This document shows, one piece after another, positions 9,882 through 17,139 of a DNA stretch of 36,860 bases (position 1 is its first letter; the number at the start of each line of letters is the position of its first letter). The DNA comes from Campylobacterota bacterium. GTDB taxonomy: Bacteria; Campylobacterota; Campylobacteria; Campylobacterales; Nitratiruptoraceae. Under the pieces are notes generated by a model. That model was given only the letters and a program-made list of their open reading frames with translations, was not told the DNA's origin and ran no database searches. The stretch lies in the NCBI GenBank assembly GCA_015494715.1, contig WGAT01000069.1, forward strand, positions 1 through 36,860, given 5' to 3'. Made by a program: the position numbers and the translations under genes.

Positions 9882-10885
9882 GAAGAGCAGCGCTTGGAAT
9901 AGTTTTTTTGGTATTGTTTTTTAGCGGCTGCAGTACCAAAAAGTACTTTATGCCTCAAGAAGTGGCCGGGGCTGTGGATTTTGACGGCAAACTGCCCGCT
10001 CCTATTATAGATGTGCTGCGCGAAGGGGCTACATTGCAAAATGGCCAATTCATAAGCGAGCAAGGTTTGGAGCCTTATAGATTGCCCAAGGGATATCTTT
10101 TTATCAAGCGGGCGGGGAAGTATTATCTCGCAGCCGATAGATGTCATAGGGTAGAGGTCATCGACGCTACGACGAAAAAAAAGATATTTCAAAAAGATTT
10201 CAAGATGAAAGCCCCCGTAGCGGCTAATTTCAAAGATGGTATACTGGCTTTGGTATTTGATAACAACTCGTTGCTGCTGTTAAATACCGCTACGGGAGAA
10301 AAGATTTACTCTTCGAATCAAACGCCAGATATCGCCGTGGATACGAAGATAGCAAATCCTTACTTTTTGGGCAAATTGGTACTATTTCCCACTTTAGATG
10401 GCAAAATCATCGTCGTAGACAGCCGGAGCGGGAGAGAGCTTCGCACTCTTATTGTAGGAACGCACAGATATTTTAACAATGTGATCTTTTTGGATGTGAT
10501 CGACGAGAAACTTATCGCCGCTACCCCTAACAAGATCATCTCCGTTACTCCCCAGTTTACCAATTCGCTGGATGTGGAGCTTAGCGATGTACTCTATGTC
10601 AAAAATAGGGTCTATTTGCTTACCAAGGATGGACGCATTATTTTAACCGATCCCGAGCTTAATCCCTTAAAGGAGCGAAAGTTCAATTTCGCCCACTTTA
10701 CAGGAGCGATCTATGGAGAGTTTATCTATATCATCGAAAAAAGCGGCTATATCATCGCCGTAGACAAGGACTTGCGCGTAGCCAATGTCTTTGAGCTCCC
10801 TGAAGAGATTGATAACTATATTTTTACGGCTCACGATACGCTCTATTATGACGATAAATATTTTAAACTTAATAAAGTTCGATGA
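9878..10885 (+). CDS. BamB-like beta-propeller outer-membrane lipoprotein
   Basis: A 335-residue exported protein with a type II signal peptide: a hydrophobic core, then FFSGCSTKK, with lipidation expected on the Cys at about residue 18. The mature part is a series of blade-like beta repeats (VEVIDATTKKKIFQKDF, LLLLNTATGEKIYSSNQ, IIVVDSRSGREL, GYIIAVDKDL) with the PQQ/WD-like V-D-x-x-x-G pattern. This fits BamB, the propeller that helps the Bam complex insert outer-membrane proteins. The pairing with a YfgM-like gene upstream agrees. Overlap with both neighbours is 4 bp. Other propeller lipoproteins are possible, so BamB is likely but not certain. Confidence 0.7.
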   Translation: MRRAALGIVFLVLFFSGCSTKKYFMPQEVAGAVDFDGKLPAPIIDVLREGATLQNGQFISEQGLEPYRLPKGYLFIKRAGKYYLAADRCHRVEVIDATTKKKIFQKDFKMKAPVAANFKDGILALVFDNNSLLLLNTATGEKIYSSNQTPDIAVDTKIANPYFLGKLVLFPTLDGKIIVVDSRSGRELRTLIVGTHRYFNNVIFLDVIDEKLIAATPNKIISVTPQFTNSLDVELSDVLYVKNRVYLLTKDGRIILTDPELNPLKERKFNFAHFTGAIYGEFIYIIEKSGYIIAVDKDLRVANVFELPEEIDNYIFTAHDTLYYDDKYFKLNKVR

Positions 10886-11211
10886 AAGAGCTGGTGGAAT
10901 TTTTCAAACAAAGTGGTCTGCTGTTTCGCTCTTTGGAGTCTCTTGAGCCAAAAGCTTTCGGGATCAAAAAGCGTGTAGAGCTTTTTAGGGGGTTAGATAC
11001 CCAAAACTTTTTTATCTTAGTGGTACGCGTAGCCAAAAAGAGCCGAATTTTGCAAAAAGAGGTGCAAGAGCTAGAAAAAATGGCCAAAAAGATCGAAGCA
11101 AAACTTGGCCACGGTTTTAAGCGGCGCTTTTTGTTGATCCAAGGGCCTATTTGTTCCAAAGCGAAAAAAGAGTTAGAAGAGATTGGCTGGAGCGTTCATG
11201 CTTTTGTGTGA
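10882..11211 (+). CDS. Conserved small cytoplasmic protein of unknown function
   Basis: I do not recognise this 109-residue protein. It is basic, has no signal or membrane segment, and alternates predicted helices (KELVEFFKQSGLLF, LQKEVQELEKMAKKIEAKLG) with strands (FFILVVRVAKK, RRFLLIQGPI). ATG overlaps the upstream stop as ATGA, and its 3' end overlaps the coaX start by 14 bp in another frame, so it is translationally embedded between bamB-like and coaX. A single CSKAK cysteine is present. The tight packing indicates a real expressed gene; no function is proposed. Confidence 0.75.
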   Translation: MKELVEFFKQSGLLFRSLESLEPKAFGIKKRVELFRGLDTQNFFILVVRVAKKSRILQKEVQELEKMAKKIEAKLGHGFKRRFLLIQGPICSKAKKELEEIGWSVHAFV

Positions 11212-11812
11212 TATTGGTAATAGCTGCGCCAAGCTTTTTGATGGCCACACTCTTTATCGACTCTCCTTGGCAGAGCTTGTGGCTTGGAAAGAAAAGCGGG
11301 TCTACTATCTCAATGTGAATAAAAAAGCTGTAAAAATGTTCCAAGATTTTGATGGTTGGGTGGATTTGGAGCCCTTTATCGAGTTAGATAGCGATTATGA
11401 GGGATTGGGAGCGGATAGAAAAGCCTTGTGTAGCTTTGTTGAAGATGGGGTGATAGTAGATGCGGGAAGTGCGGTAACGGTCGATGTGATGGAGCAAAAA
11501 AAGCATAAAGGCGGTTTTATCTATCCCGGACTCAAAGCGCTCAAAAAGGCTTACGCATCCATCTCGCCGGCTCTTCATAAAGAGCCCGTTTGGCCAAAAG
11601 AGTCGCTTCCACTCTCTACCAAAGAGGCTATTGGGTATGGTATGCTTTCTCCCTTGGTTTGTGCCATTGAGAAGTTGAGTGCAAAAAAGGGGCTCTTTTT
11701 AACCGGTGGGGACGCTCAAGTGCTCACTTCTTATATCCCCCAAGCGTTGTACAAACCTCTGTTGATCTTTGAAGCGATGGAGAAAATCATACGAAGGAAA
11801 AGTTTATGTTGA
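11198..11812 (+). CDS. coaX: Type III pantothenate kinase CoaX
   Basis: CoaX phosphorylates pantothenate in the first step of coenzyme A synthesis. The N-terminal MLLCDIGNS is the phosphate-1 motif of the ASKHA fold. GLGADRKAL carries the conserved Gly-x-Asp-Arg of the type III family, followed by VIVDAGSAVTVDV (catalytic Asp and phosphate-2 region), GGFIYPGLK and LTGGDAQVL. At 204 residues it is shorter than most (about 240-260), as is usual in Campylobacterota. ATG at 11198 is chosen because the DIGN motif must lie at the extreme N-terminus; the longer frame from TTG 11183 adds only five residues. It overlaps hisG by 7 bp. Confidence 0.9.
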   Translation: MLLCDIGNSCAKLFDGHTLYRLSLAELVAWKEKRVYYLNVNKKAVKMFQDFDGWVDLEPFIELDSDYEGLGADRKALCSFVEDGVIVDAGSAVTVDVMEQKKHKGGFIYPGLKALKKAYASISPALHKEPVWPKESLPLSTKEAIGYGMLSPLVCAIEKLSAKKGLFLTGGDAQVLTSYIPQALYKPLLIFEAMEKIIRRKSLC

Positions 11813-12423
11813 CGATTGCGCTGCCCAAAGGGCGTATAGGAGAAGACTCTTTAAAAATCTTTGAACAAATTTTTAATAAGGCGTTTCGTTTTGAGGAGCG
11901 TAAACTCATTTTAGAGGTGGATGCGTTTCGTTTTTTACAAGTACGCAACCAAGATGTTCCCACTTATGTCTACCATCAAGCAGCCGATATGGGTGTGGTA
12001 GGATTGGATGTGCTAGAAGAGAAAGGGCTCGATTTGGTGCGGCTGCTTGATCTTGGATTTGGGCGTTGTGACGTGAGTATCGGTATCCCGGCGGATGAGG
12101 AGTTAGATTTTACCAAGCCAAGTTATAAGGTGGCTACGAAGATGGAGAATATTACCAGAGATTTTTTTAGCAAAAAGGCGATTCCAGTAGAAATCATCAA
12201 ACTCTATGGCTCCATAGAGCTGGCTCCTTTGGTCGGACTTGCCGATATGATCGTCGATATCGTCGAAACGGGAGAGACTATGCGCCAAAATGGCTTAAAG
12301 CCCGCACTTTCGATTATGCAAAGCAGTGCCTTTTTAATCGCCAATAAAAATAGCTTTTACGATAAGAAAGAGCCGATTTTAGATCTCAGGGAAAAAATTA
12401 AAGAGGCGTTGTATGGGGCTTGA
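11806..12423 (+). CDS. hisG: ATP phosphoribosyltransferase HisG, short form
   Basis: HisG condenses ATP with PRPP, the first and feedback-controlled step of histidine synthesis. The 205-residue length and absence of the C-terminal ACT-like domain mark the short form, which needs the regulatory subunit HisZ. Seen are LPKGRIGEDS at the N-terminus, ADMGVVGLDVLEE (about residues 60-72), LLDLGFGRCDVSIG, and the PRPP loop ADMIVDIVETGETMRQNGL (about 142-160). It overlaps coaX and the methyltransferase gene and so is part of one transcript. hisZ is not in the window. Confidence 0.95.
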   Translation: MLTIALPKGRIGEDSLKIFEQIFNKAFRFEERKLILEVDAFRFLQVRNQDVPTYVYHQAADMGVVGLDVLEEKGLDLVRLLDLGFGRCDVSIGIPADEELDFTKPSYKVATKMENITRDFFSKKAIPVEIIKLYGSIELAPLVGLADMIVDIVETGETMRQNGLKPALSIMQSSAFLIANKNSFYDKKEPILDLREKIKEALYGA

Positions 12424-13090
12424 GCTCTATGGGCAGATCGAGCCGCTTTTGGGTTTTGAGGAGCAAAAAGAGCGGTTATATGATATTTTTTTGGAAAAAT
12501 TGCGTCTTTTGGGTGTGCGAAGCTTTTTGGATGTTGGGTGTGGAAGCGGTGCTTTTATGCAAAAAGCAAAAAAGCTTGGTTTGGAGTGCGAGGGGATAGA
12601 TTTGAGCCGACAGATGGTGGAGCGGGCACAAAGCAAAGGGCTTCAAGCAGGCTATCAAGACATTTGTGCGGTGCGAAAAAAGTATGAGGCGATTACCGCC
12701 GTTTTTGACGTGATTAATTACATGGATCAAGAAAGGCTCAAAAGATTTTTTGGATGCGTCAAAAAGGCTTTACGAAATGGTGGCTATTTTTTGTGTGACA
12801 TCAATACGCTGTATGGTTTTGAGGAGATAGCACCCGGAGCGATGATTGTAGATAAGGATAATCTTTTTGTCGCCATAGAGGCGGAGTATGATAAGGGAAA
12901 ATTAGTAACGCAGATTATTGCTTTTTTTAGACAAAACAGCTGTTTTGTCAAAAAAAAGGATACAATTATCCAGTACTATCACAAGATAGAGTTTTTAAAA
13001 ACTTTAGGGCTCAATCTTGTGGATATCGACTTTGTATCGCTGTATGGCGATGAGGTCGACAAAGCGTTATTGACATTTCAAAAGGAGTAA
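12413..13090 (+). CDS. Class I SAM-dependent methyltransferase
   Basis: A 225-residue Rossmann-fold methyltransferase. Motif I is FLDVGCGSGAF (about residues 38-48), the acidic residue that holds the ribose is in CEGIDLS (about 58-64), and a later AVFDVINYM plus GGYFLCDINT correspond to motifs IV-V. This matches the broad Methyltransf_25/11 group. The substrate cannot be told from sequence. The ATG overlaps the hisG stop by 11 bp, and one base separates its stop from the next ATG, so it is in the coaX-hisG operon without implying a histidine role. Confidence 0.85.
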   Translation: MGLELYGQIEPLLGFEEQKERLYDIFLEKLRLLGVRSFLDVGCGSGAFMQKAKKLGLECEGIDLSRQMVERAQSKGLQAGYQDICAVRKKYEAITAVFDVINYMDQERLKRFFGCVKKALRNGGYFLCDINTLYGFEEIAPGAMIVDKDNLFVAIEAEYDKGKLVTQIIAFFRQNSCFVKKKDTIIQYYHKIEFLKTLGLNLVDIDFVSLYGDEVDKALLTFQKE

Positions 13091-13091
13091 G

Positions 13092-14930
13092 ATGGGACTA
13101 TTTGGATTTGGAAAGAAAAAGCAAACTCCAAACTCTTCGCAATCCCACGAAGAGGTCGTACGCCTCAATAGGAGAGTCGTCGATCGGTATTGGATCGAAA
13201 ATCTTCCCACCTCATTGGGAGAGGGGGTTGATGGCGCAAAAAATTCTATGGCAATAGGTGTAAAGTCTGGTAATTTGCATGTGGGTGATTTTATCGATTT
13301 GCAGATACTGCAAAATAATTACGAGGCTGAAGTGGAACGGGTCGCTACCACAAAAGTGGCTTTTAGACTCTCTCCAGAGCTTCAGCAAGAGATTTTGCGC
13401 CCCTATCTTAAAAAGATTATCGAAGAAGAGCCGCAAATATCTTCTTGTTTGAATTTAGAAAATATCGTACACGATCAGGAGATAGAGACCAACAAGGCTT
13501 TAGTCCATTTGATGCTAGAGTTGGATGATCCCAATACCAATATCGAAAAGTTCAAAGCTTATATCGAGGCGCTTCCGGTTTTAAAAGAGAAGCTGCTCAA
13601 AAAGGCAAACTCCATCGAAAAGACAAGAGCCTCGACAAAAGTGGAAGATGTGGGTAGTGCGATTACGCGTTTGGGATTTTCGGAGGTAAAGCAAGAAGTA
13701 TACGATTTTATCAATCACGAGGTTACTCTTTCAAACAACTCTTTACCCCAGTTTCAAGATTTTGAGGCCTACCATATATTTTTGACGGGATTTTTCAAAA
13801 AGATAGCTCCTCTGTTTGGATTCAAAGACATTAAAAACGAGGGTCAGTCATTACTGAATATGCTCATGATTCCCGCGGCGATCATCACCAAAGAGGCACC
13901 AGAAGTAGGCAAATGGTACCGCTCCCCTAAAGAGCTTTTTGGATTGGAGATGCGTTTTTTAGAGCGTTTGAGGCTAGGATGTGACTTTATTGATATTACT
14001 CAAGAGTATTTTGTAAAGACTCTAGGCGTATTTACCTATCTTTTTGATGGATTTATTTTAGGCTATCAAATGCTCTATCCTCAATATTCCCCATCTATAA
14101 ACATTGAACTTTCGGAGCGTAAACTCAAATTTGGTTATCTTTGCTATTTGAGTATGTTGGCCCTGCGCTTCGTATTTACCAATGATACCTATAGCGGATA
14201 TCTGCTTTTTGGACGATTGCAGCGCTTAGGAATGAGTATGGGCCAAAGCAAAGCCTTTATGGATACACTTATCCAAGGAACCAACGAGCAACTCTTTAAA
14301 ATCGGCGTCTCAAGTACGCTCCGGCCAAAAGAGATACCCTCCTCGCAATATACCCTCTCTTCGATCTTAGGTACGGGAATGTATGTGGAGTACCTTTCTA
14401 AATCCTTTGAGATTTTTGATAAGAAAGGTACGAGGCTGGCTTTGCGTTATGAGGATGAGTTTTTTGCCCACGATATTTTGGAAAAGATCATAAATTTGAG
14501 CGATTTTGAGTTTCGTAAAGCCCCTTTTTGTGTAGTTTCGTGTGATAAATTAAAGGACGAAGATCTTTATTTGGATCAATTCAAGGCTTTTGATCTTGTC
14601 ATCTTTAAAAATGTGGATAAATTGCCCAAAAAACTCTTTAAAGACTTTAGCAAGATATGGAAAGATTTTGAGGGGAAATGCATAGCTACCTACAGCAGCT
14701 ACTCTATGATCGATTTTGAAAATGGCAATCTGTACGAGTTACTCAACCCTTTTGTAGTCGATTTTCCAAGTTATTATCAATCGACCACTCTTTATGTGAA
14801 AATGCTCAGCTATACCAAACAAAAGATCGATCGCTTTTTTGAAGATTTTGTATGTGATTTGGCCCAATTTAAAGGGGATAAAATCTTATCGCAAAAAAGC
14901 GTCTACTGGAGATGTATACAAGAGGTGTAA
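13092..14930 (+). CDS. HDOD-like protein with a degenerate AAA-like C-terminus
   Basis: This 612-residue cytoplasmic protein starts at ATG with AAAGGAG. Residues about 20-110 are an unassigned N-terminal region. Residues about 132-205 resemble an HDOD output domain: a helix ending in LDDPNTNIEKF, then LPVLKEKLLKKANS, and VGSAITRLGFSEVKQEV, the usual order around L-x-x-x-A-N-S and I-x-x-L-G. Residues 455-575 look like the second half of a sigma-54-activator AAA domain: FDLVIFKNVDKLPKKLF at a Walker-B position, KCIATYSSYS at a sensor-I position and NLYELLNPFVVDFPSY where activators have LYYRLN and LPPL. No Walker A or GAFTGA is present, so ATPase activity is unlikely. The role is unknown; a regulatory scaffold is one possibility. 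It closes the operon. Confidence 0.65.
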   Translation: MGLFGFGKKKQTPNSSQSHEEVVRLNRRVVDRYWIENLPTSLGEGVDGAKNSMAIGVKSGNLHVGDFIDLQILQNNYEAEVERVATTKVAFRLSPELQQEILRPYLKKIIEEEPQISSCLNLENIVHDQEIETNKALVHLMLELDDPNTNIEKFKAYIEALPVLKEKLLKKANSIEKTRASTKVEDVGSAITRLGFSEVKQEVYDFINHEVTLSNNSLPQFQDFEAYHIFLTGFFKKIAPLFGFKDIKNEGQSLLNMLMIPAAIITKEAPEVGKWYRSPKELFGLEMRFLERLRLGCDFIDITQEYFVKTLGVFTYLFDGFILGYQMLYPQYSPSINIELSERKLKFGYLCYLSMLALRFVFTNDTYSGYLLFGRLQRLGMSMGQSKAFMDTLIQGTNEQLFKIGVSSTLRPKEIPSSQYTLSSILGTGMYVEYLSKSFEIFDKKGTRLALRYEDEFFAHDILEKIINLSDFEFRKAPFCVVSCDKLKDEDLYLDQFKAFDLVIFKNVDKLPKKLFKDFSKIWKDFEGKCIATYSSYSMIDFENGNLYELLNPFVVDFPSYYQSTTLYVKMLSYTKQKIDRFFEDFVCDLAQFKGDKILSQKSVYWRCIQEV

Positions 14931-14955: not shown

Positions 14956-15231
14956 TTATTTATAAAGAGGTTTGAGTTCTTCAAAAGGGTTGGGGACTAC
15001 CCGTTTTCTATCTACGATGTATGGTACTAATGCAGCGTGTCTAGCTCGTTTGATTGCCTCTTCTACCATCTCTTGATGTTTTTTGCAATTGCCCGTAAGT
15101 CGTCTAGGCATAATTTTATACCGCTCGCTGAGGCTGTGTTTGATCAGCTCGATATCTTTATAGTCGATAAAAGTGATTTTCTTCTCGCAGTATCTGCATG
15201 TTCTTTTTTTAAATCTTCTTCTTTCAGCCAT
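14956..15231 (-). CDS. rpsR: 30S ribosomal protein bS18
   Basis: bS18 binds 16S rRNA as a heterodimer with bS6 in the platform of the small subunit. The 91 residues include the conserved core [47 protein letters not shown] in short overlapping motifs. The N-terminal CRYCEKK, with GNCKKH later, is the zinc-ribbon-like cysteine set of C+ S18 forms. It is the last gene of rpsF-ssb-rpsR, 12 bp after ssb, and ends at the shared terminator. Confidence 0.97.
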
Positions 15232-16149: not shown

Positions 16150-16177
16150 ATTATAAAAAGCAGCCCAATTTTATCAA
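16150..16177 (-). promoter_or_regulatory. Sigma-70 promoter for rpsF-ssb-rpsR
   Basis: On the minus strand TTGATA (16177-16172) and TATAAT (16155-16150) are separated by 16 bp. Transcription would start about 45 bases before rpsF. The -35 lies in the last codons of holA. Confidence 0.7.
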
Positions 16178-17139
16178 AAATATCCTTGGACTTTCATTAA
16201 GCAAGAAAAAAGTAGCGCCTCCTTGTCTATTGATTGGGCGGTTTTGAGATGGTATTCACACTCTTGCAGTTCCAAAAAAATTTGCGGATAGGCTTTGATC
16301 TTGATGGCCGCTCTTGTACGCTCCGCTTCTATTTGTGGGGGGAGCTTATAGCCCAAAATCTCTTTGGAGTCTACTTGGCCGTGCAGTCGGATATAAGAGG
16401 AGAATAAAAAGAGCTGACGCAAAAAGTTTTGAAATCCTAGCAGTATTTTCATCTCATTTTGTTCCTCTTCCAAAATCTTTTGAAAAAGTTGGCTCAACGG
16501 CTCTTTTTTGATAATGGCCATATAAAGACGCTCCAGATTTAAAGGGGCAAGGGGATAGACGAGCCTGTCGATCTCTTTGGTAGTGATAGGCTGTTGGAGA
16601 ATGGTAAGCTTTTCTAGCTCCTTTTTGGCTAGGAGCATATCTCCTTCCAATAAAGCTAGTAGATGCTCAATGGCAAAGGGGTCAATTGAGAGTTTTAACT
16701 CTTTGGCATACGCCATAAGCTCGACTTTGGCTTCTGATAAGGTGGCTTTAAAAAAGCGCACCTCTACAGCCTCTTTTTTTGAGTTGAAAAGCGGAGCGAT
16801 TTTTTTGGCCTGATTGTTTGGAAGCAGATAGATAAAGTAGCTGTTGGGATTTTTTTGGCAAAGCTCTAAAAGAGTGGCGAGTTCCGTTTTGGGTAGAGCT
16901 TTTTCATGGCGTAAAAGCAGCAAATTGGTATCGCCAAACAAAGAGGATTGGCCAAGATACTCTTTGGCTAGACCAAAATCATACTCTTCATAATAGAGTG
17001 TGAGCCGCTGCTCTTTGGGACAGAGGCGATTGGCGATAGTGGCGGCATACTTTTCTATAAAATAGGGCTCTTCGCCCCAAAAAAGGTAGGATTTAAAATC
17101 CTTTTGCTTTTGGAGGCGGTCAAACTGCCGCTTATACAT
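16174..17139 (-). CDS. holA: DNA polymerase III subunit delta HolA
   Basis: HolA opens the sliding clamp within the clamp loader. The 321-residue protein has the delta layout. It starts with YLFWGEEPYFIEKYAATI (the family's L-x-G-E-E/D opening), followed by SSLFGDTNLLLLRHE. The central helical domain carries LLALLEGDMLLAKKELEKL, matching the conserved D-x-x-x-x-x-x-E-x-x-K-L segment of delta, and a C-terminal helical collar follows. Sequence conservation is low, as is normal for HolA. The ATG lies inside the rnr stop region, an 8-bp overlap. The rnr-holA pair is conserved in Campylobacter, which adds support. Confidence 0.85.
   Translation of the reverse strand: MYKRQFDRLQKQKDFKSYLFWGEEPYFIEKYAATIANRLCPKEQRLTLYYEEYDFGLAKEYLGQSSLFGDTNLLLLRHEKALPKTELATLLELCQKNPNSYFIYLLPNNQAKKIAPLFNSKKEAVEVRFFKATLSEAKVELMAYAKELKLSIDPFAIEHLLALLEGDMLLAKKELEKLTILQQPITTKEIDRLVYPLAPLNLERLYMAIIKKEPLSQLFQKILEEEQNEMKILLGFQNFLRQLFLFSSYIRLHGQVDSKEILGYKLPPQIEAERTRAAIKIKAYPQIFLELQECEYHLKTAQSIDKEALLFSCLMKVQGYF

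Follow-up and report, generated by a model that had tools for sequence, protein, structure and literature searches.

The gene at positions 13092-14930 (+) of the window, by which we mean the whole 36,860-nucleotide stretch analysed, encodes a composite protein in which a PilZ domain, an HDOD domain and a conserved C-terminal domain follow one another. On balance we favour the reading that it is a non-enzymatic adaptor responsive to c-di-GMP. Its PilZ and HDOD homology, its conservation across the family, the missing catalytic motifs and the gene order are observed; ligand binding, conformational coupling, the partner and the process controlled are inferred. Known signalling parts are here combined in a new way, together with one conserved domain that has no family match. 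The initial annotation, made from the sequence of the window, had already placed the gene at exactly these positions, where the reading frame of 612 residues is intact, and had described a composite protein, which holds. The regulatory, non-enzymatic role that it proposed is likely. It had also recognised the HDOD domain, but it overlooked the PilZ domain at residues ~27-93, and with this domain in place the most likely role shifts to c-di-GMP signalling. The gene and its parts are as follows.

13092-14930, forward strand: PilZ-HDOD-C-terminal domain protein, 612 amino acids, uninterrupted reading frame
13092-13124, forward strand: leader MGLFGFGKKKQ, 85% mean column conservation
13170-13370, forward strand: PilZ domain, residues ~27-93 (hhalign, Pfam in some orthologues, single-sequence HMM)
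13173-13187, forward strand: RxxxR motif of the PilZ domain (R28, R32), invariant in 17 of 17 orthologues
13230-13247, forward strand: (D/N)xSxxG position of the PilZ domain, DGAKNS here and thus degraded
13497-14012, forward strand: HDOD domain, residues ~136-307 (Pfam, profile-profile), no conserved His
14013-14363, forward strand: conserved segment, residues 308-424, no family match, helical in a low-confidence model only
14364-14927, forward strand: C-terminal domain, residues 425-612, conserved core 446-575, with the motifs RxAxRYED, LVIFKNIDKLP, KIWKDFEGKIIVTYS and IVDFPS

The gene is known so far only from one family of deep-sea-vent Campylobacter relatives. A protein search of 41 genomes recovered end-to-end orthologues in 21 of the 22 genomes sampled from its own family, but none in the 19 that represent other families of the order. 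Among named contigs, the nearest is one from a Nitratiruptor metagenome-assembled genome (95% identity). A profile of 17 orthologues, which are 36-95% identical to the window protein at most positions compared, was searched against 298 genomes from the phylum and detected no full-length relatives outside the family; there, the HDOD part alone matched. The viral contigs searched contained no relative of the protein.

The evidence for the PilZ domain comes from several comparisons. When the orthologue profile was aligned by hhalign with 25 PilZ sequences, residues ~27-93 matched with an E value of 5.9e-8 and a score of 44, while the maximum score among 30 column-shuffled controls was 14. Single-sequence HMM scores for PilZ likewise exceed those of shuffles. 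Pfam by itself makes no PilZ call in the window protein; it does so in 3 of the 17 orthologues, with a best value of 0.003, and a genome search placed PilZ inside the orthologue of genome G019 at E 2.7e-4. All six orthologues from the genera g2 and g3 retain an intact second PilZ motif, in the forms DISKNG, DVSKNG, DISKKG and DISKAG. The final glycine is replaced by S or T in most members of the window's own genus, g1, and because the motif is degraded there, direct binding of c-di-GMP may have been lost in that genus. The leader that precedes the domain is better conserved than any other part of the protein and is possibly an amphipathic peptide for membrane targeting or interaction.

The same genome encodes 13 GGDEF domains and has two further PilZ matches elsewhere, so that c-di-GMP signalling is likely to be present. 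One of its PilZ proteins, of 351 amino acids (L129 366-1421 +), has a hydrophobic N-terminal stretch, and many genomes in the family contain PilZ frames of comparable length (about 350-380 amino acids).

Pfam HDOD (PF08668) matches residues 136-239 with an E value of 3e-7 and 30.4 bits, above the curated cut-off of 22.9, and it matches all 17 orthologues. In a profile-profile comparison against 21 HDOD proteins from related genomes, the similarity reaches residue ~306 (E 1.7e-8). In the orthologue alignment no histidine column is conserved within residues 128-330, and the HDOD part is therefore not expected to be a phosphohydrolase. HDOD domains have been reported to be catalytically inactive, and one HDOD protein, SadB, binds c-di-GMP as measured by SPR; the mechanistic role of these domains has been described as not established (PMC6543031).

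The C-terminal domain is conserved to a similar degree. The mean column conservation of residues 446-575 is 0.62, against values of 0.66 and 0.59, which is on a par with the HDOD part. The domain probably has an alpha/beta fold; helix and strand alternate in its low-confidence secondary structure. No credible Pfam family or PDB sequence match was found for it, and in a phylum-wide search with the C-terminal profile alone the real relatives came from the same family only. Weak matches to proteins of 456 residues, which read as HldE-like and LeuA-like, and one to a protein of 404 residues, which reads as a histidine kinase, were dismissed as chance. AlphaFold gave no usable model of the full protein from three near-identical sequences (pLDDT 34), and its model of the C-terminal domain from two sequences was likewise unusable (pLDDT 39); a Foldseek search with the latter returned noise only, with nothing at E <= 0.001. 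Single-sequence HMM scores favour no candidate fold for this domain.

The initial annotation had read residues 455-575 as the catalytically dead half of an NtrC-type sigma-54 activator fused to HDOD. The likeness is a visual one between short strand motifs: PF.vv.C...L, LVIFKN.D.LP and TYS recall PFIALN, LFLDEI and SATN of the activators. It found no support in comparisons with true sigma-54 activators, first 5 and then 18 of them, for which hhalign gave probabilities of 0.2-0.3% and scores within the column-shuffle range. True activators have the PF..LN strand ~47 residues ahead of Walker B and sensor 1 ~41 residues behind it, whereas the corresponding candidates in the window protein lie at ~25 and ~27 residues; by this spacing two large deletions, of ~22 and ~14 residues, would be needed. 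The Walker A motif GxxxxGK(S/T) and the GAFTGA loop are absent from 17 of 17 orthologues, as had been noted for the window protein, which thus differs from NtrC-type activators in both motifs as well as in profile. Among 61 genomes sampled from the class, true activators (PF00158, E <= 1e-40) occur in 0 of 7 genomes of the window's family but in 49 of 54 other members. We consider a sigma-54 origin very improbable. The seven family genomes that have no PF00158 activator are G000, G001, G003, G005, G011, G016 and G017.

A degenerate P-loop or AAA+ module, not specifically of the sigma-54 type, would also provide a surface for oligomerisation or docking. According to this explanation Walker A has been lost, Walker B has eroded to FKNID and the sensor-1 threonine has been kept. 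To the eye, the succession of LVIFKNIDKLP and KIIVTYS is reminiscent of the stretch from Walker B to sensor 1 in AAA+ proteins, including clamp-loader delta subunits, and the alternation of helix and strand in the low-confidence secondary structure agrees with such a module. BcsE offers a precedent, as a c-di-GMP sensor with a RecA-like module that lacks Walker A (PMC7439463). Against it, the P-loop motif is missing from every orthologue, neither Pfam nor the PDB gave a sequence match, and the profiles of sigma-54 activators, DnaA and HolA give no support. The HolA family was accordingly set aside as the origin of the domain, as was DnaA, which single-sequence HMM scores do not support either. 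The profile-profile method also fails to link HolA to DnaA, both of them AAA+ proteins, so that negative profile results weigh little for remote folds. We regard this origin as unlikely.

The candidate that is weakly favoured for the C-terminal fold is an aspartate-less receiver, which would make the protein a PilZ-HDOD-pseudo-receiver with a docking surface independent of phosphorylation; we hold this to be a real possibility, somewhat short of an even chance. D455 would occupy the acid-pair position, K506 would replace the phosphorylated aspartate, and T533 and P559 would be kept. If this register is right, the phospho-acceptor is absent throughout, with Lys or Arg at 506 in all orthologues. 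The spacing of D, K, T and P fits receivers if one insertion of ~7 residues is allowed, and HDOD is listed among the domains highly associated with Asp-less receivers (PMC4395418). A global hhalign comparison with 20 receivers scored 14.0, higher than all 300 column shuffles (mean 3.5, maximum 13.4) and all 35 reversed rotations. The hhalign probability is nonetheless only 1.9%, and 8 of 31 circular rotations score equally high, so that the alignment leaves domain order untested. In addition, DnaA, which is not a receiver, reaches z 2.8 against receivers; single-sequence HMM scores fall inside the shuffle range; the lysine before P559 is lost; and P559 itself is left unpaired in the hhalign alignment.

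The adaptor might work as follows. The PilZ domain would read c-di-GMP, directly or through a partner where the second motif has decayed; the HDOD domain, which has lost the histidines that serve as metal ligands in the HD fold, would relay the change as a protein-interaction module; and the conserved C-terminal domain, probably alpha/beta, would bind a putative partner as the output to some cellular process. The leader MGLFGFGKKK may tether the adaptor to the membrane. More tentatively, the protein could be a c-di-GMP hub specific to this family of Nitratiruptor relatives, with PilZ as input, an inactive HDOD domain as relay and a C-terminal fold that is either devoid of catalytic residues (an Asp-less receiver or a P-loop-less NTPase) or new.

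Parts of this arrangement have counterparts in known systems. PilZ homology, the invariant RxxxR and an attached second module are shared with c-di-GMP receptors of the YcgR/FlgZ type, but the partner here is HDOD with a further domain, and in the genus of the window protein the second motif for binding has degraded. SadB also has an HDOD domain by sequence, is non-catalytic and is linked to c-di-GMP; it joins HDOD to a YbaK-like domain, whereas HDOD here has PilZ on its N-terminal side and a different domain on its C-terminal side. The cellulose secretion regulator BcsE is a c-di-GMP-sensing scaffold made of degenerate modules (PMC7439463). By analogy only, it resembles the window protein as a c-di-GMP-linked scaffold whose modules lack catalytic motifs; its domains are different, homology is not demonstrated, and no cellulose operon was recognised nearby. 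A limited literature search found no described PilZ-HDOD fusion and no counterpart of the whole architecture, and one may exist elsewhere. If the window protein binds c-di-GMP, it would be an HDOD protein with a recognisable built-in sensor for a second messenger, in which signal relay by HDOD becomes testable. For the Campylobacterota of deep-sea vents it would also be a candidate effector of c-di-GMP.

The gene lies behind two others in tight head-to-tail order and faces genes on the opposite strand.

11806-12423, forward strand: hisG (TIGR00070, E 1e-55), overlapping the next gene
12413-13090, forward strand: class I SAM methyltransferase gene, directly upstream, with 1 base between its stop and the PilZ-HDOD ATG
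14956-15231, reverse strand: 91-residue reading frame, convergent, probably rpsR (S18) from reading the sequence
16174-17139, reverse strand: HolA, DNA polymerase III delta subunit (NF006302, E 2.8e-108)

The packing agrees with the co-transcription that the initial annotation had proposed, but a scan for promoters and terminators yielded no excess over shuffles, so that packing and conserved order are all that speak for co-transcription. Neither hisG nor the methyltransferase gene hints at the function of the PilZ-HDOD protein. Farther upstream, between a BamB-like gene and coaX, a 109-residue reading frame (10882-11211, +) has no Pfam or NCBIfam match, and the HolA of the window has no Pfam match at E 0.01. 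Four other genomes, which represent three genera, preserve the order hisG-methyltransferase-PilZ/HDOD and have rpsR-, ssb- and rpsF-like genes convergent to it, and in the genomes compared holA lies ~1.2 kb past the end of the PilZ-HDOD gene.
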